This document shows positions 42,895 to 55,125 of a stretch of 64,000 nt of DNA, in pieces. Every line of letters begins with the position of its first letter. Positions within the stretch are counted from its first letter, which is position 1. Source of the stretch: Nisaea sp. (GTDB lineage: Bacteria; Pseudomonadota; Alphaproteobacteria; Thalassobaculales; Thalassobaculaceae). The notes beneath the pieces are model-generated. The model worked only from the letters and a program-made list of their open reading frames with translations, did no database searches and was not told the origin of the DNA. The translations under genes were made by a program, and so were the position numbers. The stretch is from assembly GCF_017640745.1 (NCBI RefSeq), contig NZ_JAEPQA010000019.1, positions 1 through 64,000 of the forward strand, read 5' to 3'.

Positions 42895-42983
42895 CTTTCC
42901 GTGGTTGAAAAGAAACACTGCGTTAGGCGCGGCGGCGGTTCAAGGCGCTTGACCTTGGCCCCGGGCGGAAGATGATGCGGCTC

Positions 42984-44141
42984 ATGGAAAACACTCAGTT
43001 CAAATCCGGCGGCGGCGCGCCCGCCTCTCCCTCGACCCAGACCTCCGTCGACCGCGCGATCTCGGAACTTCGCCGCGGCGGCCTTGTGCTGGTGCACGGA
43101 TCGGCCGATGACAGCGTCCTGCTGGTGCTCGCCGCCGAAATGGCCAACCAGGTGGCGCTCGCCGCAATGGTCCGCCTCGCCGGCAGCCTCCCGTCGGTGA
43201 TCGTGCCGCGGAACCGGGCGCGCGACATCACGGGCAACGAGGCCATCCCGCCCTATTCCAGCATGGCGCTGCCGCGCGGCGTCGATGCGGCCCTGGTTCG
43301 CCAGATCGCCGACCCGCTGTTCGAACCGGAGAAACTCGGCGCCCTGCGCCGGGCGCTGACCATCGTCCCGGTGCGCGCCGGACGTCTCGGGCCCGCGGTG
43401 GTCCAGCTCGCCAAGTGGTCGCGGCTGCTTCCCTCGGTCGTCGTGGCTCGTGTCACCGACGTGAAAGCCGCGGAGGCCGCGCGCTGGGCCCATGCCCAGG
43501 GGCTGCTCTCCCTCGCCGTCTCCGATATCGAGGATTATGTCGAGGCGAGCGCGCGCCGCCTCAGCCGGGTCGCAACCGCGCGCGTGCCGCTCGCTGCCGC
43601 GGAAAACGCGCGGATCGTCGCCTTTCGCCCGGCCGACGGCGGCGAGGAGCATCTCGCGATCATCATCGGGGAGCCGGATTTCGACGCCCCGGTTCTGGTC
43701 CGTCTCCATTCCGAATGCCTGACCGGCGATCTTCTCGGCAGCCTGCGCTGCGATTGCGGCGACCAGCTCCGGGGGGCGCTCAAGGAGATCGGCAACCAGG
43801 GCTCCGGTATCCTGCTCTATCTCGCCCAGGAAGGCCGCGATATCGGGCTCATCAACAAGCTGCGCGCCTATCAGCTGCAGGATCTCGGCAGCGATACCGT
43901 CGACGCAAACGAACAGCTTGGCTTCGAGGCCGACGAGCGGGTCTATCTGAGCGCCGCCGAGATGCTCCACCAGCTCGGGGTGAAGTCGGTGCGGCTGATG
44001 ACCAACAATCCGGAAAAGATTGCCCAGCTCAAGAGCTGCGGCGTCGATGTCGTGGAACGGGTCGCCCATATCTTCCCCTCCAATGCCCACAACGAGGGCT
44101 ACCTGAAGACCAAGGCGGCGCGCACAGGCCATCTTTTCTAG
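42984..44141 (+). CDS. ribA: GTP cyclohydrolase II with degenerate RibB-like N-terminal domain
   Basis: This 385-residue protein has a complete C-terminal GTP cyclohydrolase II domain (from about residue 190): VRLHSECLTGDLLGSLRCDCG supplies the zinc cysteines, and GILLYLAQEGRDIGLINKL and LMTNNPEKI follow. The N-terminal ~180 residues align loosely with 3,4-dihydroxy-2-butanone-4-phosphate synthase (RGGLVLVHGSADDSVLLVLAAE) but lack the acidic DDEDRENEGD site, so that half is probably inactive. ATG at 42984 or 42972. No FMN riboswitch is visible in the short upstream gap. Confidence 0.9.
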   Translation: MENTQFKSGGGAPASPSTQTSVDRAISELRRGGLVLVHGSADDSVLLVLAAEMANQVALAAMVRLAGSLPSVIVPRNRARDITGNEAIPPYSSMALPRGVDAALVRQIADPLFEPEKLGALRRALTIVPVRAGRLGPAVVQLAKWSRLLPSVVVARVTDVKAAEAARWAHAQGLLSLAVSDIEDYVEASARRLSRVATARVPLAAAENARIVAFRPADGGEEHLAIIIGEPDFDAPVLVRLHSECLTGDLLGSLRCDCGDQLRGALKEIGNQGSGILLYLAQEGRDIGLINKLRAYQLQDLGSDTVDANEQLGFEADERVYLSAAEMLHQLGVKSVRLMTNNPEKIAQLKSCGVDVVERVAHIFPSNAHNEGYLKTKAARTGHLF

Positions 44142-45135: not shown

Positions 45136-45657
45136 TTGGATCTTGTTCTCAGGGCCGGCGACGCCGGCATCTACCATCTCGACATGAACGGCGAGCTGTT
45201 GCGTTGCGCGATCGGCAAGGGCGGTGTGCGGACAGACAAGCGCGAAGGCGACGGCGCGACGCCAGTCGGGCGTTTTCCTTTGCGCCGTATCTTTTACCGC
45301 CGCGACCGTCTGGCACCACCACCCGGCTGCAAGTCCCCGATCGAAATCGCACCGGATCAGGGCTGGAGCGACGACCCGGCCGATCCGGATAACTATAACC
45401 GCCTCGTCGTCCTGCCCTACGACGGCTCGCATGAGCGGCTGATGCGCGAGGATGCGGTCTACGACGTTGTGGTCGAACTCGGCTACAACGACGACCCGCC
45501 GATCCCGGGCCTGGGCAGTGCGATATTCATGCATGTCGCCCGGCCGGACTACTCCGGTACCGAGGGCTGCGTCGCCCTCGCCCTGCCGGACCTGCTGAGA
45601 GTGCTGGAACAGTGCGGAGGAGAAGGCGCGGTCGTGGTTCCGCCGGATCTCGCCTAG
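45136..45657 (+). CDS. YkuD-family L,D-transpeptidase
   Basis: This 173-residue protein is a compact L,D-transpeptidase catalytic domain: GDGATPVGRFPLRRIFYR near the N-terminus, then IFMHVARPDYSGTEGCVAL with catalytic His and Cys. It may cross-link peptidoglycan, but no signal peptide is present, as in several cytosolic-looking alphaproteobacterial members. The start is a TTG at 45136 behind GGAGGGG; a later ATG at 45184 would cut into the domain. The 3' end overlaps the YggS gene by 4 bases. Confidence 0.87.
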   Translation: MDLVLRAGDAGIYHLDMNGELLRCAIGKGGVRTDKREGDGATPVGRFPLRRIFYRRDRLAPPPGCKSPIEIAPDQGWSDDPADPDNYNRLVVLPYDGSHERLMREDAVYDVVVELGYNDDPPIPGLGSAIFMHVARPDYSGTEGCVALALPDLLRVLEQCGGEGAVVVPPDLA

Positions 45658-46355
45658 CCGGCGGGCTTCTGCCGTTCCCCGAAGATTGCCGTACCGACCC
45701 GCACATGGGTGGCACCGAACTCGATCGCGGTCTCGTAGTCGCCGCTCATGCCCATGCTCAGCTTCTCGAGGCCGTGGCGGCGGGCGATCTCCCGCAGGAG
45801 CGCGAAATGCAGTGCCGGTTCCTCGTCCACCGGCGGGATGCACATCAGTCCGGTGACATTGAGACCGTGCTCGTCGCGGCAGCTTTCGATGAAGGCATCG
45901 GCCTCCGAGGGCAACACGCCGGCCTTCTGCTCCTCCTCGCCGGTATTGACCTGGACGAAGCATTCGAGGCTGCGTCCCTGCTTCTTCATTTCGCCTGCGA
46001 GAACCCGGGCCAGCTTCGGACGATCAACCGTCTCGATCACGTCGAACAGAGCAACCGCATCGGCCGCCTTGTTGGTCTGGAGCGGCCCGATCAGATGCAG
46101 GGCGACATCGGGATATTTCTGCTTGAGCGCCGGCCATTTGCCTTGCGCTTCCTGGATCCGGTTCTCGCCGAAGACCCGTTGTCCTTCCTCCAGCGCCGCC
46201 TCGACGCGCTCGACCGGCTGCACCTTGCCGACGGCAACGAGCGTCACCTCGTCCGGCGCGCGGCGCGCGGCTTTCGCGGCCGCCGCGATCTGCGCGCGGA
46301 CAGTCCGGAGATTGTCCGCAACGTTCACGTCGGCATCATTTTCCGCAATGTCCAT
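45654..46355 (-). CDS. YggS/PLPBP pyridoxal-phosphate homeostasis protein
   Basis: This 233-residue protein binds PLP without a known catalytic reaction and affects vitamin B6 and amino-acid balance. The PLP lysine lies in VTLVAVGKVQPVERV (KVQP replaces the usual KTxP), and FGENRIQEAQGKW, LHLIGPLQTNKA and LSMGMSGDYETAIEFGATHV are family signatures. The ATG at 46355 lies 4 bases after the stop of the TPR-sulfotransferase gene, so it is co-transcribed with that unit. An earlier ATG at 46370 is possible but lacks a ribosome-binding site. Confidence 0.93.
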   Translation of the reverse strand: MDIAENDADVNVADNLRTVRAQIAAAAKAARRAPDEVTLVAVGKVQPVERVEAALEEGQRVFGENRIQEAQGKWPALKQKYPDVALHLIGPLQTNKAADAVALFDVIETVDRPKLARVLAGEMKKQGRSLECFVQVNTGEEEQKAGVLPSEADAFIESCRDEHGLNVTGLMCIPPVDEEPALHFALLREIARRHGLEKLSMGMSGDYETAIEFGATHVRVGTAIFGERQKPAG

Positions 46356-46359
46356 CGTC

Positions 46360-48270
46360 TCAATCCCCATAGCCAAAGCGTTCAATTTCCGCGTGCAGCT
46401 CCTCGGCTGCCGCCATCAGTTTAGGCCCGTATCGCTGCCAGCGCGCCACGGCATGTCCGTAGAGGGGCTGCGTTACCTGCGCATAGCTCGGCGTCGCGAT
46501 ATAGCCCCGGCCGCGGGCGTGCTCGTGAAAGGCCAACAAGCGTTCGTCCCACTCCAGCCCGAGGAAGTTCAGCACCGGCTCGGTCGAGCCCCTCAGATCG
46601 CGCGTCATGTCCTCGTACCTGACCGTGACCACCGACAGGTTGAGGGTCTCCATGTAGCGCTCCCAGAGCGAGAAGACCTCGCGATAAAAACGGATGGTGT
46701 CATCCAGCGAGCAGAATACCGCCATGGAATGGTTGAGGCTGAAATTCTGCATCAGGCAGCTGAGGCAGACGTCGCAGGGATGACGTAGCGCCAGAATAAA
46801 GCGCGCGCGCGGAAACAGCCGCTTGATAAGTCCCGCATGGACAATGTTCAGCGGCATCTTGTCGATATAGAGCGCGCCATCCGACGGCACCATGAAGCGT
46901 GAGCGTTCAGCGAAATAGGCGGATCTGAGATCCGCAAGCTTCGCCTCCGACAGGGTCTCCAGCGCGCCCGGATAGACCCCCTCCGCCCGTAGCCTGAGCG
47001 CCAGATTGGTAATCAGCGGACGCTCTTCCAAGACCTCCACACTCGGATGGGCATTGAGCACCTGATCCAGCAAGGTGGTGCCGGAGCGCGGAAACCCGAC
47101 GAGAAATACGGGGTCCGGTTCGCCCGGAGCGGGGGCCGCCACATCCTTCGCCCAGGCAGGGACCTTGGAATATGCAACCGCCAGCTCCGCCACTTCGGAG
47201 AATGCACGACCCGGCTCGAGCTGACCGTCGCGGAATTCCTCGAACTGCACACGGTTGGCCGTCTCGAACCATTCGAGGGCCTCCTCGCACTCCCCGAGCG
47301 CGTCCAATGTCTGCGCCAGTTCGAAACCGAGCCTGAACGTGTCGGGTCCTTGAGCAATTCCCTTCAGAGCCGGCACGAGCAACGATTTTGCCTCTTCGTG
47401 ACGTTTCAGCCGCCGAAGCACGCGCCCTCGAAGAGCCGTCAGAAACTGATCCTGCGGCGCGAGGAAGCCTCCGTTCCGCGCAACCAGCAGCGCCTCTTCG
47501 AGAGCCGACTGCCGGTCGAGCAGCTCGGCGAGGAGCCTCAGGGATGCGGTTTGCCGCGGGTCCGCTGTAACAGCACGCCGTGCCATCCGGACCGCCCGCG
47601 CGAGATCGCCGGTTTCACGGCAGAATTGCGCCAGCGCGCGAAGCACCCGCGGATCTGCTGTATCCCCGCGTAGAAGTTCGTCGAAGCGCTGCTTCGCGGC
47701 CTCGGTGCGGCCCATCGAGAGATAGATGCTGGCAAGATTGCTGCGGATCTCGATAGCGTCATCCCGCCGCGCGGCCCGTTCGAGCATTTCGGCGGCGCGC
47801 GGCAGGTTCCACTGACTGCGGTAGATCACCGCCAGATTGTTCAGCACAGCCGGATCGTCGCCCAGCGCCAGTGCCGTTTCGAGCGCGGGCGCCGCCACGT
47901 CGTAGCGCCCGAGTTCCAGCAAGATGCTGCCGTGGAGTTTCTGGACCTGCGGGTTATCGCGAAGCCGCCCGGCAATCGGCCCGAGCAGCTCGGCGGCGGA
48001 AGCGGCAGCACCTCTGTGGAACCGCACCTGCGCCAGGTTCACCGCGACCTGAAGTTCCGTCGCCGGTGCCAGACTGCGGGCCTTTTCCAGAAGCGCCTCG
48101 GCGCGCTCGAAATGCCCGCCGGACGCCTCCAGCATGCCGAACGTGTAGAACGGCCGCCAGTCACCCCCGGCCTTGCGCAAGACGCGCGCATATTTTTCGC
48201 GCGCATCCCTCCAGCGCCCGGCCGAAGCGAGGCGCTGGATCGGCCCGAGATCGTTGGACGCTGCTGCCAT
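46360..48270 (-). CDS. TPR-sulfotransferase fusion
   Basis: This 636-residue protein has TPR repeats over about residues 10-340 and a PAPS-dependent sulfotransferase domain at the C-terminus. The 5'-phosphosulfate loop VFLVGFPRSGTTLLDQ is at about 389-403 and the 3'-phosphate motif RFILALRHPCDVCLSC at about 490-505. TPR-sulfotransferases often modify proteins or exopolysaccharides; the TPR part would select the target. It is 21 bases downstream of a second sulfotransferase and 4 bases upstream of YggS. The acceptor is unknown. Confidence 0.9.
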   Translation of the reverse strand: MAAASNDLGPIQRLASAGRWRDAREKYARVLRKAGGDWRPFYTFGMLEASGGHFERAEALLEKARSLAPATELQVAVNLAQVRFHRGAAASAAELLGPIAGRLRDNPQVQKLHGSILLELGRYDVAAPALETALALGDDPAVLNNLAVIYRSQWNLPRAAEMLERAARRDDAIEIRSNLASIYLSMGRTEAAKQRFDELLRGDTADPRVLRALAQFCRETGDLARAVRMARRAVTADPRQTASLRLLAELLDRQSALEEALLVARNGGFLAPQDQFLTALRGRVLRRLKRHEEAKSLLVPALKGIAQGPDTFRLGFELAQTLDALGECEEALEWFETANRVQFEEFRDGQLEPGRAFSEVAELAVAYSKVPAWAKDVAAPAPGEPDPVFLVGFPRSGTTLLDQVLNAHPSVEVLEERPLITNLALRLRAEGVYPGALETLSEAKLADLRSAYFAERSRFMVPSDGALYIDKMPLNIVHAGLIKRLFPRARFILALRHPCDVCLSCLMQNFSLNHSMAVFCSLDDTIRFYREVFSLWERYMETLNLSVVTVRYEDMTRDLRGSTEPVLNFLGLEWDERLLAFHEHARGRGYIATPSYAQVTQPLYGHAVARWQRYGPKLMAAAEELHAEIERFGYGD

Positions 48271-48291
48271 TCAAACCCCGATATCGACGGA

Positions 48292-49137
48292 TCAGACGCG
48301 CGGCGTTCCTGACTTGGAAATATATCCAAGCTCCAGGAGCAGATCGTAATGGCGCTCGGTCAGGCGTTTCACGTGATCCTCGCTGAGCACCTGCCGGTAG
48401 CCGCCGACGCCGCCGGCACGGAAGAATTTCTGCGACTGGTGCACCCGCTCGCGGAAACCTGTCTGCTTCTCCTGGCCGGCGACCACAGAAAAGCTGCTGT
48501 TTCGGATCGCGCGCTTCAGTCTTTCGGAGTCCTTCGGCACACCGAGATACCGCATGAAGGCTCCGAACGCCTTGGTCGGATTCTTTGCCATCGCCTCGTA
48601 TTTCAGGGTCAGCGGATTGAAATTCTCGACGGCGTGCCAGCTCCGGTAGTGATCGGTCCAGGTGCCCAGCACCTGGAATACGGCAGCCTTTGTCGTCCGG
48701 GTCGTCTGCAGATAGGAGGTCATGGCCTCCACCGCATCGTCCAGCGAGAGCCGGTAATGGTCCGCATAGGAAACCGTTACGTCGTAGACGTTGCGCACGA
48801 CATAGACGGCGCCGGCCGTATGCTCGAGATGAATCAGCGGTCGGCCTTCATGCATCATCAGCGCGTTATGCGTCTTCACGATCGCGGTTTCCGGCTGCGA
48901 CGCCCAGGATTTCTGCAGCGGCTCGCGAAGCGCATGGATATCCGCATCGCTCAGCTGCGCAAGCGGCTTGCCGGCGATCTGTTCATAGAGCGGCCCCATC
49001 ATGTCGCCGAACCGCACGACCCCGAGATCGTTGATCGAAACCGGCTCCGGGCTGTTCCGGAACAGGTTCTCGATGAAGATCCGGAGCCAGGTGTTGCCCG
49101 ATTTGGGAAAGGAGGCGAGCCACAGAATACCGCTCAT
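48292..49137 (-). CDS. PAPS-dependent sulfotransferase
   Basis: This 281-residue single-domain sulfotransferase has the 5'-PAPS loop LASFPKSGNTWLR (F10-W17) and the 3'-phosphate motif YVVRNVYDVTVSYADHY. It resembles cytosolic-type sulfotransferases of small molecules or peptides more than the glycan type. The gene starts 19 bases after the stop of the JmjC-type gene and ends 21 bases before the TPR-sulfotransferase, so all three are probably one transcript. The acceptor is unknown. Confidence 0.92.
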   Translation of the reverse strand: MSGILWLASFPKSGNTWLRIFIENLFRNSPEPVSINDLGVVRFGDMMGPLYEQIAGKPLAQLSDADIHALREPLQKSWASQPETAIVKTHNALMMHEGRPLIHLEHTAGAVYVVRNVYDVTVSYADHYRLSLDDAVEAMTSYLQTTRTTKAAVFQVLGTWTDHYRSWHAVENFNPLTLKYEAMAKNPTKAFGAFMRYLGVPKDSERLKRAIRNSSFSVVAGQEKQTGFRERVHQSQKFFRAGGVGGYRQVLSEDHVKRLTERHYDLLLELGYISKSGTPRV

Positions 49138-49156
49138 CGCGCTGTTTCCAGAATCG

Positions 49157-50344
49157 TCATCCGCGCAGCCGCCAGATCACCCCGTGTTTGGCGAGCGCAC
49201 CCAGGAGCGCCTCGAACTGCGGAACCCGGTCCGGGAAGGCCGCACGAAGGTCGGAAAGCCAGATTTCTTCCGACCCGACGATTTTCTCGACGACCGCGTA
49301 GTCCTCTTTCGCAATGTCGAGGCTGAAGCCTTCTCCGCTGAGAGTCGCCGCCTGCCCCCTGCGCGCCAGCTTCACCGGGCGCCGTGTGACCATGAAGTAG
49401 ATATCGGGCGTGCGGTCGGGAAGATTATGGCGCACCACCTTGTCGGCCACCTGAGCCATCAGATAGCCGCGGACATGATTGTGGAACTCCGGCCGTGCCA
49501 TATGTTCTGCAACCTTCTTGCCAAGCTCCGTGATGTAGTTGGCAAGGTCATCCCCGTCATCGAAATGTGGGATTCGCTTCCGGAAGAACTCGTCCTGATG
49601 GAGATACGGGGTCAGCATGTTGAGCGAGGAGTGACCGTCGACATAGGTGGCGCCGAAGGACAGGTGCAGCGACGCGGTATCCGTGGTCATCGCGTCGTGA
49701 TAGAGCCCGCGCGGCAGGTAGAGCACATCGCCCGGGCGCATCACGATCTGCTGCATGACCTCGCCCTTCTGCTGATTGTGCTGCTCACGGGAGAAGTCGC
49801 CCGGACGGACCCGCGGCACATCGATCGCCTCGTTGACCCGTCCCCGATAGATGTTCCAGGTCTTCTCGCCCTCGATCTGGATCGCGAAGACGCACATCGT
49901 ATCGAAGTGAGAGTGATAAGCCTGAACGCTTTTCCAGGAACAATAGGCGTTGCAGGACGCGTGCGTGCCGGTCAGACGTTCGATGAACCGGGTGGCATCC
50001 TGGATCGAGGGATGAATTCCCTCGATGAAGTCGAGGACCAGGCTTGCGCCCTTGGACATCAGGAAACGGACGCGTTCGGGATCGGGAACGAGAACGTTGG
50101 CGCCCCTGCGGTCGCGTCCCGGCTGGCAATACTGCTCGGACGGCAGGACGTTGCCGTCCACAGCCATCTCCATAAAACTTGCGTTCCACAGTTTCGACCG
50201 GTTGATCAGGTCATTCATTTGTTCCCAGCTGAAGAGCGCGTCGACCGGATCGAAGGAGCCTTTTTCGAAGTAATAGGCCTTGTCCCAGTAATCGCTCAAG
50301 AACTGGTCGCGGGTGATTTTCTTGAAGAAATTCTCGAACTGCAC
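49157..50344 (-). CDS. JmjC/cupin-type 2-oxoglutarate oxygenase, RoxA-like
   Basis: This 395-residue protein has the JmjC fold with Fe(II) ligands His146 and Asp148 (AYHSHFDTM) and His216 (LPRGLYHDAMT), and Lys161 (IEGEKTWNI) placed to bind 2-oxoglutarate. The C-terminal segment WLSDLRAAFPDRVPQFEALL then HGVIWRL looks like the winged helix of ribosomal oxygenases of the YcfD/RoxA-MINA53 type. It is therefore probably a protein hydroxylase. It leads a compact unit with two sulfotransferases and YggS. A small-molecule substrate is the main alternative. Confidence 0.85.
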   Translation of the reverse strand: MQFENFFKKITRDQFLSDYWDKAYYFEKGSFDPVDALFSWEQMNDLINRSKLWNASFMEMAVDGNVLPSEQYCQPGRDRRGANVLVPDPERVRFLMSKGASLVLDFIEGIHPSIQDATRFIERLTGTHASCNAYCSWKSVQAYHSHFDTMCVFAIQIEGEKTWNIYRGRVNEAIDVPRVRPGDFSREQHNQQKGEVMQQIVMRPGDVLYLPRGLYHDAMTTDTASLHLSFGATYVDGHSSLNMLTPYLHQDEFFRKRIPHFDDGDDLANYITELGKKVAEHMARPEFHNHVRGYLMAQVADKVVRHNLPDRTPDIYFMVTRRPVKLARRGQAATLSGEGFSLDIAKEDYAVVEKIVGSEEIWLSDLRAAFPDRVPQFEALLGALAKHGVIWRLRG

Positions 50345-50437: not shown

Positions 50438-50470
50438 AAAAAGAAAAGGGGCCGCACAAGGCGGCCCCTT
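50438..50470 (-). terminator. Terminator of the porin gene
   Basis: AAGGGGCCGC (50446-50455) pairs with GCGGCCCCTT (50461-50470) around a five-base loop. Read on the minus strand, the hairpin is followed by TTTTCTTTTT. It lies 25 bases after the porin stop. It separates the porin transcript from the oxygenase-sulfotransferase unit. Confidence 0.9.
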
Positions 50471-50494
50471 CCCGAAGTCCGTAATCCCGGAGGA

Positions 50495-51598
50495 TTAGAA
50501 GGACAGCTTCATGCCGACGACGAAGAAGGTGCCATCGGTACCTTCCGCGCCAGTGTTGTCGGTGTCGTACTCGGTGTGGCCGAGGGTGGCCGCAGCGGTC
50601 ACGCCCGGGCCGAGCGCGTACTTGCCGGACAGAGCATAGGTGTTCTGTTCGCCGGTACCGGAGGTCACACCGGCAGTGGTGGAACCTTCACGCTCGCCGT
50701 GGAACCAGCCGAGGCTGACGCCCCACGGGCCAGAGGCATAAGCGACGCCGAGGTTGTAGCCTTCTTCGTCCAGGGCATCGGTGGTGCCTTCGGACTTGGC
50801 ATAGGACGCGCCGGCGGAGAAGCCGCCGAAGCCGACGGTCAGGCCGAGGGCCCAAGCAGCCGGGTCGTCCTGACCAGCGGTCGCACCTTCGGTGAACGTG
50901 CCGTAACCACCGGAAACGCCGAGGTCGAAGCCGCCGAGGTCACGCTTGAAGTTGGCACCGATCGCATAGCCGTCAGAGAAGCTGGCGTTGCGGTCCGGCT
51001 GACCGTTGGCGTCCTGGCCGTTGTCCGGAATATAGGACACACCAAGCTGGAAGCCTTCGATACGCGGCGTGTAGTAGGTCAGCTTTTCGGAGTCGTTGGT
51101 CCGGTTCGGCTCAACGTTGGTGGAACCGAACGGGCTGCGGAAGAAGCCGCCGGAGACGGAAGCCGGCTGGGTCACCCAGTCGCCCTGGTCACCGGAGTTG
51201 ATGCCGATGCCATACTCGTCCGGAGCATAGTTCATCTTGTAGAGAGCGGAGTTCTCAGAACCCAGGTTGATCTCACCAAAGTTGCCTTTGACGATCAGGT
51301 AGGATTCGTCGATCTGGTCACCAGCGTTGCTGTTGGCTTCCAGCTGGACGTTGATGCCGACAGAAATGCCGTTGTCCAGGGTGGTCATGCCGGTGAAGTG
51401 GATTTCGGAGTCGGACTTGACGTCGAAACCGCTGTAGTCGTTGGTGGAACCGGTGCCTTCGTCCTGAGAGACGTAGCCGAACCACTGTTCCATGTAACCG
51501 CCGACAGACACTTTGAGCTTTTCAGCAGCGTCCGCGGACGGCGAGGCGATCATGCCAGCGGCAACAATCGCGGTCGTTCCGAGAAGAATCTTTTTCAT
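50495..51598 (-). CDS. Gram-negative porin
   Basis: This 367-residue protein has a signal peptide (MKKILLGTTAIVAAGMIASP, ending SADA) and a 16-strand beta-barrel pattern ending in FFVVGMKLSF, with C-terminal Phe. The middle has NFGEINLGSENSALYKM, a typical porin motif for the L3-type constriction loop. It is an outer-membrane general diffusion channel. Its codon use is distinctly biased (GGT-free runs of CTG, GTC, TTC and ATC on the sense strand), suggesting high expression. It has AGGGGA before the ATG and a strong terminator downstream. Confidence 0.92.
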   Translation of the reverse strand: MKKILLGTTAIVAAGMIASPSADAAEKLKVSVGGYMEQWFGYVSQDEGTGSTNDYSGFDVKSDSEIHFTGMTTLDNGISVGINVQLEANSNAGDQIDESYLIVKGNFGEINLGSENSALYKMNYAPDEYGIGINSGDQGDWVTQPASVSGGFFRSPFGSTNVEPNRTNDSEKLTYYTPRIEGFQLGVSYIPDNGQDANGQPDRNASFSDGYAIGANFKRDLGGFDLGVSGGYGTFTEGATAGQDDPAAWALGLTVGFGGFSAGASYAKSEGTTDALDEEGYNLGVAYASGPWGVSLGWFHGEREGSTTAGVTSGTGEQNTYALSGKYALGPGVTAAATLGHTEYDTDNTGAEGTDGTFFVVGMKLSF

Positions 51599-51935
51599 TT
51601 TCCCCTACTCCCGAGAGTCGTCGGTTGAATTAACGCGGTCAGTTGAATGCAGATGAACTGCTTAACCCCCTAACCTGACGTCAAAGCATCACTATTCGGT
51701 CCCCCTGTGACCGTCAAGAAAGACAGGCCGGACATTTATGCAAATCTGTCTCAATGTGGCGAAAATGCCACAAACCCATGGCACATCGGGGATTTATCGG
51801 ATTTAGTGCCGACTCGACGGCTGCCTCCACATGGCAAGTTGTTCCGAACCCATAGAAACGGTAAAAGGCGTCTCGACCACATGAAAAACGCGAGTGCGAA
51901 TCTTGGCTGATTTAAGGATTCCGGGGCTTTTGGGA
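51599..51935. promoter_or_regulatory. Divergent porin / DUF3576 intergenic region
   Basis: These 337 bases contain the promoters of two divergent genes. An inverted repeat TGTGGC-GAAAAT-GCCACA is at 51755-51772, about 157 bases upstream of the porin start. No convincing gene is present; the 67-codon open frame at 51707-51910 lacks a ribosome-binding site. A specific promoter cannot be pinned down. Confidence 0.4.
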
Positions 51936-52469
51936 ATGTGCGGCCGACTGAAATACGCGGCTCTGTTGGGCGTGTTCGCCCTTGCGGCATGCGAAGGCGC
52001 GGATATCGAGTACGAATATCCGCGCTCCGGGCCGGGCGGCCGGCCGACCTATGAGAAAGAGTCAAAAGTCTTCGGCGAGGACGGCTTCACACTCTTCGGA
52101 GAGGATGCCGACAAGCAGCAACAGCAGGGGGCACTCGGTTCGGGCATTGCGGTGAACAGCTTTCTCTGGCGCGCCTCGCTCGACACCATTTCCTTTATGC
52201 CGCTCGCATCCGCGGATCCGTTCGGTGGCGTGATCATCACCGACTGGTACTCGCCGCCGGAAACCCCGAACGAGCGCTTCAAGATCAATATCTTCATCCT
52301 CGATCGGGCACTCCGGTCGGACGGCGTGCGCGCGAAGGTGTTCAAACAGCGCATCGCGGCCGACGGCCAGTGGCAGGACATCGGAACCGAGGAGAAGCTC
52401 CATCGGGATCTGGAGGATGCGATCCTCACCCGTGCGCGCCAACTACGGATCGGCACCACCGGGAACTGA
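51936..52469 (+). CDS. DUF3576 lipoprotein
   Basis: This 177-residue protein has a lipobox ending at Cys19 ([10 protein letters not shown]) and the DUF3576 core [31 protein letters not shown]. The family is found mainly in alphaproteobacteria next to leuS and lptE. Role unknown, probably outer-membrane-associated. The ATG at 51936 is set by the signal peptide; the open frame starts at 51894. It leads a plus-strand operon with leuS, lptE and holA. Confidence 0.9.
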
Positions 52470-52563: not shown

Positions 52564-55125
52564 ATGTCCCGTTACAATTTTCGCGAAACCGAGTCGAAGT
52601 GGCAGCGTGTCTGGGAAGAGCAGCACTGCTTCGAAGTGAGCGAAGATCCGGAAAAGCCGAAATACTATGTCCTCGAGATGTTCCCCTATCCGTCCGGGCG
52701 CATCCATATGGGGCATGTGCGGAACTATACGCTTGGCGACCTCGTCGCCCGCTACAAGAAGGCGAAGGGCTTCAATGTCCTGCACCCGATGGGCTGGGAC
52801 GCCTTCGGCTTGCCGGCGGAGAACGCGGCCTTCGAGCGCGGCGTGCATCCGGCGAAATGGACGCACGAGAACATCGCCTCCATGCGCGAGCAGCTGAAAA
52901 GCATGGGGCTGTCCTACGACTGGCGGCGGGAGATCGCGACCTGCGATCCGTCCTATTACCGCCACGAGCAGAAAATGTTCCTCGACTTCTACAAGGCGGG
53001 GCTCGCCTACAAGAAGGAGAGTTGGGTCAACTGGGATCCGGTCGAGAACACGGTGCTCGCCAACGAGCAGGTGATCGACGGCATGGGCTGGCGCTCCGGC
53101 GCCCCGGTCGAGAAGCGCCTGCTGTCGCAATGGTTCCTGAAGATCACCGAATATGCCGACGAGCTGCTGGAAGCGCTTGAGGGTCTGGACCGCTGGCCCG
53201 ACCGTGTCACGCTCATGCAGCACAACTGGATCGGCAAGTCGGAGGGCGCCCGCGTCTTCTTCAAGCTGAAAGACAACGAGGAGAAGCTCGAGGTCTTTAC
53301 CACGCGTCCCGATACGCTCTACGGCGCGTCCTTCTGCGCAATCGCGGCAAACCACCCGATCGCGGCGCAGGTGGCGGAGAACAACCCGGCGCTCAAGGAG
53401 TTCATCGCCGAGTGCAACCGCATGGGCACCAGCGAAACCGAAATCGAGACGGCCGAGAAGAAAGGCTTCGATACCGGACTCAAGGTCGTCCATCCGCTCG
53501 ACGAAAGCTGGGAACTACCGGTCTATGTCGCGAATTTCGTGCTGATGGAATACGGCACCGGCGCGATCTTCGGCTGTCCGGCGCACGATCAGCGCGACCT
53601 CGACTTCGCCCGTAAATACGACCTGCCGGTGACGCCGGTCGTGCTGCCGCCCGATGCCGACGCCGCGAGCTTCGAGGTCGGAACCGAAGCCTATGTCGGT
53701 CCGGGCAAGATCTACAATTCGGACTTCCTCGACGGGCTGTCGGTCGACGAGGCCAAATCGAAAGTGGCAGAACGCCTGCAGTCAATGGGGTGCGGCGAAA
53801 AGACGACGACCTATCGCCTGCGCGACTGGGGCGTTTCCCGCCAGCGGTACTGGGGCTGCCCGGTTCCCTTCATTCACTGCCCGGATTGCGGCGAGGTTCC
53901 GGTTCCGGAAGCGGACCTCCCGGTCGAACTGCCGGAAGACGTCGAGTTCGAGGGTGCCGGCAACCCGCTCGACCGGCATCCGACCTGGAAGCACGTTGCC
54001 TGCCCGAGCTGCGGCGGCAAGGCCGAGCGCGAGACCGATACGTTCGACACGTTCTTCGAATCCTCCTGGTACTTCGCGCGCTTCGCCGACGCCGAGGCCG
54101 AGAACGCCTTCTCGAAGGAGGCGGCGGAGTACTGGCTGCCGGTCGACCAGTATATCGGCGGCATCGAGCACGCCGTCCTGCACCTGCTCTATTCCCGCTT
54201 CTTCACCCGCGCGCTGAAGAAATGCGGCTACCTCAATCTCGACGAGCCCTTCGCCGGCCTGATGACCCAGGGCATGGTCTGTCACGAGACCTACAAGGAT
54301 GAGAAAGGCGCCTGGCTGTTTCCGACCGAGGTGAGGAAGGAAGGTTCCGGCTTCGTCAAGGCTGCCGACGGAACGCCCGTCAAGGCCGGCCGCATCGAGA
54401 AGATGAGCAAGTCGAAGCGTAACGTGGTCGATCCGGAAAACATCATCGGCAGCTATGGCGCCGACACGGCCCGGCTCTTCATGCTGTCGGACTCGCCGCC
54501 GGAGCGCGATCTCGAATGGACCGAGTCCGGGGTCGAGGGATCCTGGCGCTATCTCAGCCGTCTCTGGCGCCTGATCACCGAGCCGGCGAAACCCTTCGCG
54601 CCGCGCGGCACCGCCCGGCCGGCCGAGCTTTCCGGCAAGGCGGAAGCGGCCGAGAAGGCCGTGCACAAGGCAATCAAGGGGATCGGGGAGGCGATCGAGC
54701 GGTTCCGCTTCAATACGGCGGTCGCCCAGGTGCGCGAACTCAGCAACACCCTCGCGGAACTTGACGGTGACGACGAGGGCTCCGCCTGGGCCCGCCGTTT
54801 CGGCTACGAGACCCTGGTCCGGCTGGTCGAACCGATGGTTCCGCATATCGCCGAGGAACTCTGGGTCGAACTGGGCGGCGAAGGCCTGCTCACGAACGTG
54901 CCCTGGCCCGTCTTTAGCGAGGATTTGGTACGCGACGACACGCTTACCATCGCCGTACAGGTCAACGGAAAGTTGCGCGGCACAATAGAAGCTGCACGCG
55001 ATGCGGACAAATCCGGTGTCGAGGAAGCCGCACTGGCCCTCGAGAACGTGCAGAAGATCCTCGAAGGCAAGGCTCCGCGCCGGGTTATCGTGGTTCCCAA
55101 CAAGATTGTGAATATCGTTGCCTAG
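52564..55125 (+). CDS. leuS: Leucyl-tRNA synthetase
   Basis: This 853-residue class I synthetase charges tRNA-Leu. The HIGH-type motif [15 protein letters not shown] and the KMSKS motif [12 protein letters not shown] are present, with a CP1 editing domain between them that contains the threonine-rich [13 protein letters not shown] zinc-binding CPSCGGK is also seen. ATG at 52564 begins [19 protein letters not shown], the family start. Its last bases overlap lptE. Confidence 0.97.

Follow-up and report, generated by a model that had tools for sequence, protein, structure and literature searches.

Analysis of a 64,000-nucleotide stretch of DNA from Nisaea sp. (contig NZ_JAEPQA010000019.1, positions 1 to 64,000; referred to below as the window) revealed a gene for an outer-membrane porin of the Porin_4 family next to genes for sulfotransferases. 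Such a porin-linked sulfotransferase locus is found over many alphaproteobacterial families, with a JmjC oxygenase of the ribosomal oxygenase (ROX) type as an accessory. In the window, genes encoding the JmjC protein, a sulfotransferase dependent on 3'-phosphoadenosine 5'-phosphosulfate (PAPS; the enzyme is called ST1 here), a sulfotransferase with tetratricopeptide repeats (TPR-ST), and YggS follow each other with gaps of 19, 21, and 4 bases, respectively. The initial annotation of the window had described these four genes as a compact operon for hydroxylation followed by sulfation, and their strand, positions, and spacing were confirmed from the sequence. It had overlooked the Porin_4 gene, the most conserved partner, which is located 150 bases upstream of the JmjC gene on the same strand, with the porin, JmjC, and ST1 genes consecutive. 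The locus is tentatively interpreted, at somewhat less than even confidence, as a surface-modification locus around the porin, with sulfation as its core, hydroxylation by JmjC as an accessory, and the porin as the presumed target. The findings suggest a chemical decoration of the cell surface, and perhaps of the pore, of a kind that has yet to be described.

The JmjC protein of the window was searched in 61 genomes (36 of the same family, its own included), and orthologues (E < 1e-100) were found in 18 of them. At each of the 17 further same-family loci, ST1 adjoins JmjC and YggS closes the group (individual loci, genomes, and contigs are designated L, G, and C below). The porin precedes JmjC and ST1 at 16 of these loci; at the 17th (L049), the contig starts at JmjC. 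The TPR-ST is a single open reading frame (ORF) at 15 loci, is split into two pieces in L050, and is absent from L040. Genomes without a JmjC orthologue were examined via YggS. The order porin-ST1-YggS is kept without JmjC at the same-family loci L082, L084, L085, L091, L094, L095, and L096 and at the other-family loci L088 and L090. In L086 and L087, ST1 and YggS lie near the contig start, and L089 and L093 hold a porin without ST1. This result indicates that the widest unit consists of the porin and ST1, with JmjC and the TPR-ST added or repeatedly lost. A conserved neighborhood, by which the initial annotation had proposed to judge its gene set, was found for the whole set within the family; outside the family, only parts of the set co-occur.

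Nearly all of these genes share one ancestral chromosomal slot, leuS-DUF3576-[slot]-yggS-ykuD-ribA, which is found across families and varies in content, order, and orientation. It accommodates a porin, at least one ST1 and, in some lineages, JmjC, TPR-ST, and PAPS-synthesis genes. A census was made of 60 fetched loci with both anchors, most of which had been fetched for holding ST1 or JmjC. The commonest content was porin and ST1 (28 slots), followed by porin, ST1, JmjC, and TPR-ST (13) and by porin and JmjC (7). The remaining slots with an enzyme held porin, ST1, and JmjC (2), porin, ST1, and TPR-ST (2), porin and TPR-ST (1), porin, JmjC, and TPR-ST (1), or JmjC alone (1). Two slots held only a porin, and three held none of these genes, one of which (L098) has a weak porin-like ORF (44.6 bits). 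In these counts, L227 was entered as porin and TPR-ST, since the YggS frame called there is too long and runs into JmjC; the TPR-ST of L050, being in two pieces, was left uncounted. A porin is present in 54 of the 55 slots that hold an enzyme, and the exception (L238) has a porin just beyond YggS. Ten unassigned slot genes were scanned against Pfam, and seven of them proved to be PAPS-synthesis genes located between ST1 and YggS. Such genes occur in 5 of the 40 fetched ST1 loci: L146 and L156 have a PF01507 (CysD-like) gene together with a CysNC-like gene, L154 has a fused form, and L152 and L168 encode an adenosine 5'-phosphosulfate (APS) kinase protein. For PAPS supply in the genome of the window, an APS kinase domain was found elsewhere (G000:C6:24720-25166), in a frame of 641 amino acids.

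A profile of 31 ST1 sequences, searched in 289 sampled Alphaproteobacteria, matched 76 genomes with 121 copies. Porin_4 genes were sought in those 76 genomes, and the ST1-porin counts given here rest on the porin matches listed to about E 1e-12. Close ST1 copies (at least 259 bits) lie within 3 kb of a listed porin in 61 of 86 cases, 60 of them on the same strand; at the genome level, this applies to 49 of 63 genomes. Only 2 of the 35 weaker copies (below 259 bits) are near a listed porin, and both (G204 and G244) are tandem copies in porin-slot arrays. Porin and ST1 genes were also found to multiply side by side. In L132, the array reads porin-ST-ST-porin-ST-ST, the two porins being 77% identical and the sulfotransferase pairs 56 to 57% identical within a block versus 46 to 50% across blocks. 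In L148 (G256), three porins adjoin ST1. In L141, ST1 and a porin are paired, and no anchor was found in 12.8 kb. A search of plasmid records gave only two distant ST1 matches, from Hyphomicrobiales bacterium UR115 and Tistrella mobilis, and both coincide in coordinates with weaker paralogues of G073 and G256.

These data bear on the possibility that the genes have no functional tie and form a vertically inherited chromosomal neighborhood, which is considered improbable. Conservation of the leuS-to-ribA frame across families would be expected from inheritance of this kind. The fairest census sample, 13 YggS-fetched slots from genomes chosen for lacking a JmjC orthologue, is too small to speak against it (ST1 in 8 of 11 slots with a porin and in 0 of 2 without). 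However, the slot content changes repeatedly and the enzymes nevertheless keep an adjacent porin. The joint multiplication in L132, the pair in L141, and the rarity of porins near weaker paralogues of both ST1 and JmjC (for JmjC, see below) also argue for a functional tie.

ST1 was assigned to the Sulfotransfer_1 family with 80 bits (Pfam cut-off, 22). In PF00685 enzymes, PKSGNTW is the PAPS loop and the histidine of KTH is catalytic. In an alignment of 97 rows, both the loop (P11 to W17) and the KTH motif (H90) are retained almost throughout, the KTH histidine in 95 rows, including the window. The solved relatives nearest to ST1 by sequence are the glycopeptide sulfotransferases Teg12 (E 5.7e-13) and Teg14; StaL is weaker (2.2e-4). 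These three enzymes act on nonribosomal glycopeptides. No glycopeptide cluster was recognized among the genes examined at this locus. It is rather unlikely that a surface glycan or lipid (lipopolysaccharide, capsule, or aminolipid) is the target of the sulfotransferases and that the porin is co-located as both concern the outer surface. The relationship to Teg12 and Teg14 would fit such a target, as would the sulfation of small molecules and glycans by PF00685-type enzymes elsewhere and the lack of any porin residue that tracks ST1. Nevertheless, it is porins that are found again and again in the slots, rather than genes for glycans or lipids, as judged from a nonexhaustive Pfam scan of selected slot genes, and the architecture of the TPR-ST is that of a protein-modifying enzyme.

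Some further ST1 arrangements were recorded. At L169:310-8000 (G324:C157), nine tandem ST1 genes with 40 to 78% mutual identity stand directly before YggS, together with a fragment at the contig start. Nisaea nitritireducens carries a second strong ST1 match (G003:C23:116286-117116) with one in-frame TAG, 104 kb from the nearest listed porin. At L038:466-1290 and L039:6796-7762, an ST1 paralogue on the opposite strand is positioned between the porin and JmjC, in separate fragments in L039. In the porin slot of L156, two ST1 genes flank a gene (L156:6847-9645) for a protein of 932 amino acids that combines a methyltransferase domain with a TPR array, possibly another modifying enzyme.

The TPR-ST combines a Sulfotransfer_3 domain with TPRs (129 bits; Pfam cut-off, 27), and its catalytic part is nearest to TPST2 (E 7.9e-13). 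The glutamate in TPST-type sulfotransferases is catalytic. The PRSGTT loop and E415-E416 of the TPR-ST have counterparts in the alignment with TPST2, and all 17 aligned rows have them unchanged. The protein therefore shares the phosphosulfate loop and the Glu pair with TPST1 and TPST2 but differs from them in its long N-terminal TPR superhelix and in having no evident N-terminal signal. Comparison of the whole predicted structure by Foldseek gave TPR or other repeat proteins as the 50 matches listed, with OGT first. OGT and SPINDLY, in which a transferase domain likewise follows a TPR superhelix, offer a comparison of how the TPR-ST may work; the likeness is in the TPR part, and the transferase here is a sulfotransferase and not a glycosyltransferase. 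Taken together, the ROX-type fold predicted for JmjC, the TPST-like catalytic part, and the OGT-like TPRs make a protein product plausible, in agreement with the sulfated protein suggested by the initial annotation. A recurring partner of other TPR-STs was sought in a neighbor tally aimed at outer-membrane receptors, in which 63 of 144 listed ORFs were used; among the 25 of 82 families shown, no partner recurred other than TPR proteins and response regulators. At L264, one TPR-ST is followed by a porin.

The JmjC protein contains a JmjC_2 domain (83 bits; Pfam cut-off, 22). The earlier family assignments of this protein, the two sulfotransferases, and YggS (TIGR00044) were all borne out. Its Fe(II)/2-oxoglutarate site, reported as intact, is indeed present: H146, D148, and H216 (the HxD...H iron site) and the 2-oxoglutarate lysine K161 show no variation among the 18 family members aligned. 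The protein shares 85% identity with its counterpart in Nisaea denitrificans DSM 18348 and 84% with that in N. nitritireducens, and its best solved relatives by sequence are NO66 and B. subtilis YxbC. A structural model (mean pLDDT, 81; pTM, 0.61) aligned over residues 1 to 395 to NO66 (Z, 22.8; 350 residues; root mean square deviation, 10.8) and to YcfD (Z, about 19). The high deviation from NO66 makes the relative placement of the domains unsure. In the structural alignment, the JmjC domain is followed by a C-terminal dimerization region and a winged helix. The likeness to protein (ribosomal) hydroxylases noted earlier thus extends in the model over the whole length, with the active site and domain order predicted to be shared with the ROX enzymes YcfD/RoxA, NO66, and MINA53. 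Unlike these enzymes, to which it is 15 to 22% identical in structural alignments, the JmjC protein is encoded in a porin slot together with sulfotransferases.

The JmjC profile matched 39 of the 289 Alphaproteobacteria. Outside the family, 13 of 24 matches with at least 190 bits are within 3 kb of a porin, whereas a simple density estimate based on the number of porins and the size of the genome predicts 0.11; among distant matches (below 125 bits), this holds for 1 of 15. Neither group includes the two Nisaea rows or two further rows of 183 and 154 bits, both of which have no porin nearby. When porin linkage is mapped onto a tree of 42 JmjC proteins, it requires 4 changes, at least 2 of which are forced by well-supported branches. 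Twenty non-family JmjC loci were fetched, and 14 of them have at least one anchor (LeuS, DUF3576, or YggS) beside JmjC; the other 6 have none. In non-family slots, JmjC and the porin often read toward leuS rather than toward YggS. At L227 and L229, from two other families, JmjC occurs with a full-domain TPR-ST and a porin, without ST1. As a separate observation, several TPR proteins without a recognized catalytic domain adjoin JmjC at the YggS end in family f101 (L223:692-5900 and L240:1581-6001).

JmjC might be an ordinary ribosomal oxygenase that acts on a ribosomal protein and is present at the locus by descent, unrelated to sulfation; this is unlikely, although with a substantial residual chance. 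Besides sharing the fold of NO66, MINA53, and YcfD in the model, JmjC is the slot's only enzyme, with no sulfotransferase beside it, in 8 of 60 loci and is found outside the slot altogether at 6 of 20 fetched loci. On the other hand, the majority of the fetched non-family loci retain a slot anchor beside it, and in the Nisaea family it lies between the porin and ST1. Its order and orientation differ between lineages, and the short JmjC/ST1 junction in the window likewise argues against mere descent.

The hydroxylate-then-sulfate proposal of the initial annotation, in its strict form, would have JmjC create, on a peptide or a small molecule, the hydroxyl group to which the sulfotransferases subsequently add sulfate. 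The gene set is real and conserved, and JmjC and the TPR-ST share a slot in the Nisaea family and in the two families of L227 and L229. An obligatory order of the two reactions is unsupported: ST1 and the porin occur without JmjC in 28 of 60 slots, and JmjC is found without sulfotransferases in several (porin and JmjC, 7 of 60). No precursor-peptide gene was recognized, small ORFs having been searched for only unsystematically. A strict pathway is not required, because ST1 is usually without JmjC and JmjC is often without sulfotransferases, and this explanation is considered improbable.

Several observations weigh against a modification locus centered on the porin. When ST-linked porins (64 rows, the window included) were compared with unlinked porins (21 rows), no Tyr, Ser, or Thr column cleanly separated the two groups. 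The best hydroxyl-residue difference was 58% versus 5%, in a column that is occupied by Phe in the window. No conserved porin sulfation site is claimed. Twenty-five of the 86 close ST1 copies have no listed porin within 3 kb. Eight of these are in one G324 array, whose contig starts inside it, and those of G146 and G286 are also at contig ends; others, such as those of G205 and G003:C23, are away from contig ends. The upstream genes of five porin-less copies were inspected by eye, and nothing clear was seen. Two of the five loci with PAPS-synthesis genes, L146 and L154, lack a porin within the sequence examined. The nearest outgroups of the Nisaea-family JmjC clade in the 42-protein tree are not porin-linked, and 6 of the 20 fetched JmjC loci are outside the slot. 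The YggS-fetched slots are too few for a test of the ST1-porin association. Finally, nearly all of the genes are in one ancestral slot, so the counts are not independent and the numbers overstate the independent support.

The region between the porin and the enzyme genes also weighs against a modification locus of this kind. A strong terminator separates the porin from the enzymes, which weakens the case for co-transcription. A hairpin like that of the window was found 3' of the porin in 39 of 44 porin/enzyme pairs (gap of at most 600 bases; median, 117). This arrangement fits strong porin expression with weak read-through or with a separate promoter for the enzymes. A sigma-70-type promoter was looked for between the porin and JmjC in the window, and none was found.

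One porin position differs with JmjC. Asn 91 is present in 15 of 16 JmjC-bearing and 0 of 7 JmjC-lacking same-family genomes, as a one-residue length difference. The exception, L040, is also without TPR-ST, and in the aligned rows Asn 91 follows the presence of the TPR-ST. It is regarded as a weak lead, being a single length difference among related sequences with too few independent events.

On the interpretation of a surface-modification locus around the porin, ST1 would transfer sulfate from PAPS onto the porin, or onto a porin-associated surface molecule, in the cytoplasm before export. The acceptors would be hydroxyl side chains of the porin, most likely of Tyr, Ser, or Thr. Where ST1 is present in several diverged copies, these would serve several porin sites. 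In the Nisaea family, JmjC would hydroxylate a side chain of the same protein. The superhelix of the TPR-ST may hold the unfolded chain while the enzyme adds sulfate at another site, which could be, but need not be, the hydroxyl made by JmjC. The outcome would be a porin with extra negative charge and altered pore selectivity, salt tolerance, or phage recognition. It is conceivable, though doubtful, that many Alphaproteobacteria possess a dedicated multisite sulfation of porins before export, perhaps with one ST1 paralogue per site, to which some lineages add a ROX-type hydroxylase and an OGT-like TPR-ST, so that their porins would be both hydroxylated and sulfated.

Table 1. Genes and signals of the porin-linked sulfotransferase locus and its flanks in the window
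Feature	Position	Strand	Remarks
Outer-membrane porin, Porin_4	50495..51598	-	PF13609, Pfam E 3.6e-56, 367 aa; proposed substrate or functional partner
Strong intrinsic terminator, porin/JmjC gap	50443..50473	-	13-pair stem and T tail
JmjC Fe(II)/2-oxoglutarate oxygenase, ROX type	49157..50344	-	GTG start, 395 aa; PF08007
ST1, PAPS sulfotransferase	48292..49137	-	PF00685, 281 aa; member of porin-linked clade
TPR-ST, TPR superhelix and TPST-like sulfotransferase domain	46360..48270	-	PF13469, 636 aa
YggS, pyridoxal phosphate-binding protein; locus anchor	45654..46355	-	NCBIfam TIGR00044; closes slot in relatives
YkuD L,D-transpeptidase; locus anchor	45136..45657	+	PF03734; conserved neighbor
RibA-type GTP cyclohydrolase II; outer anchor	42972..44141	+	PF00925
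DUF3576 protein; anchor on porin side	51894..52469	+	PF12100; conserved neighbor
LeuS, leucyl-tRNA synthetase; anchor	52564..55125	+	Start from 853-aa orthologues; ORF longer

The locus in the window is flanked by the DUF3576 gene and leuS beyond the porin and by ykuD, a hypothetical gene, and ribA beyond yggS (Table 1). An alternative in-frame TTG start of YggS at 46385 would overlap the TPR-ST. YggS, which had been counted as the fourth operon partner, is better regarded as a locus anchor and is not likely to belong to the pathway.

A bacterial system with which the locus can be compared is known from Xanthomonas, in which the 60-residue peptide RaxX is tyrosine-sulfated by RaxST. RaxST uses PAPS and has its own protein substrate encoded by an adjoining gene; the RaxST/RaxX system is the subject of PMC6637879. 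The present locus differs in that the neighbor is an outer-membrane porin, as the presumed substrate, that ST1 is a PF00685 enzyme, and that a JmjC protein is added. Among the papers listed in searches of an open-access library, none appeared to describe porin sulfation or this locus, which is weak evidence of absence. If the porin is the target, bacterial protein sulfation, known for a peptide signal, would in many genera also apply to a pore protein of the outer membrane. Permeability, salt tolerance, and phage binding would then probably be affected, and a ROX-type hydroxylase would have a possible nonribosomal role. Even with another surface substrate, a porin-linked sulfotransferase locus in many alphaproteobacterial families provides a directly testable enzyme lead.

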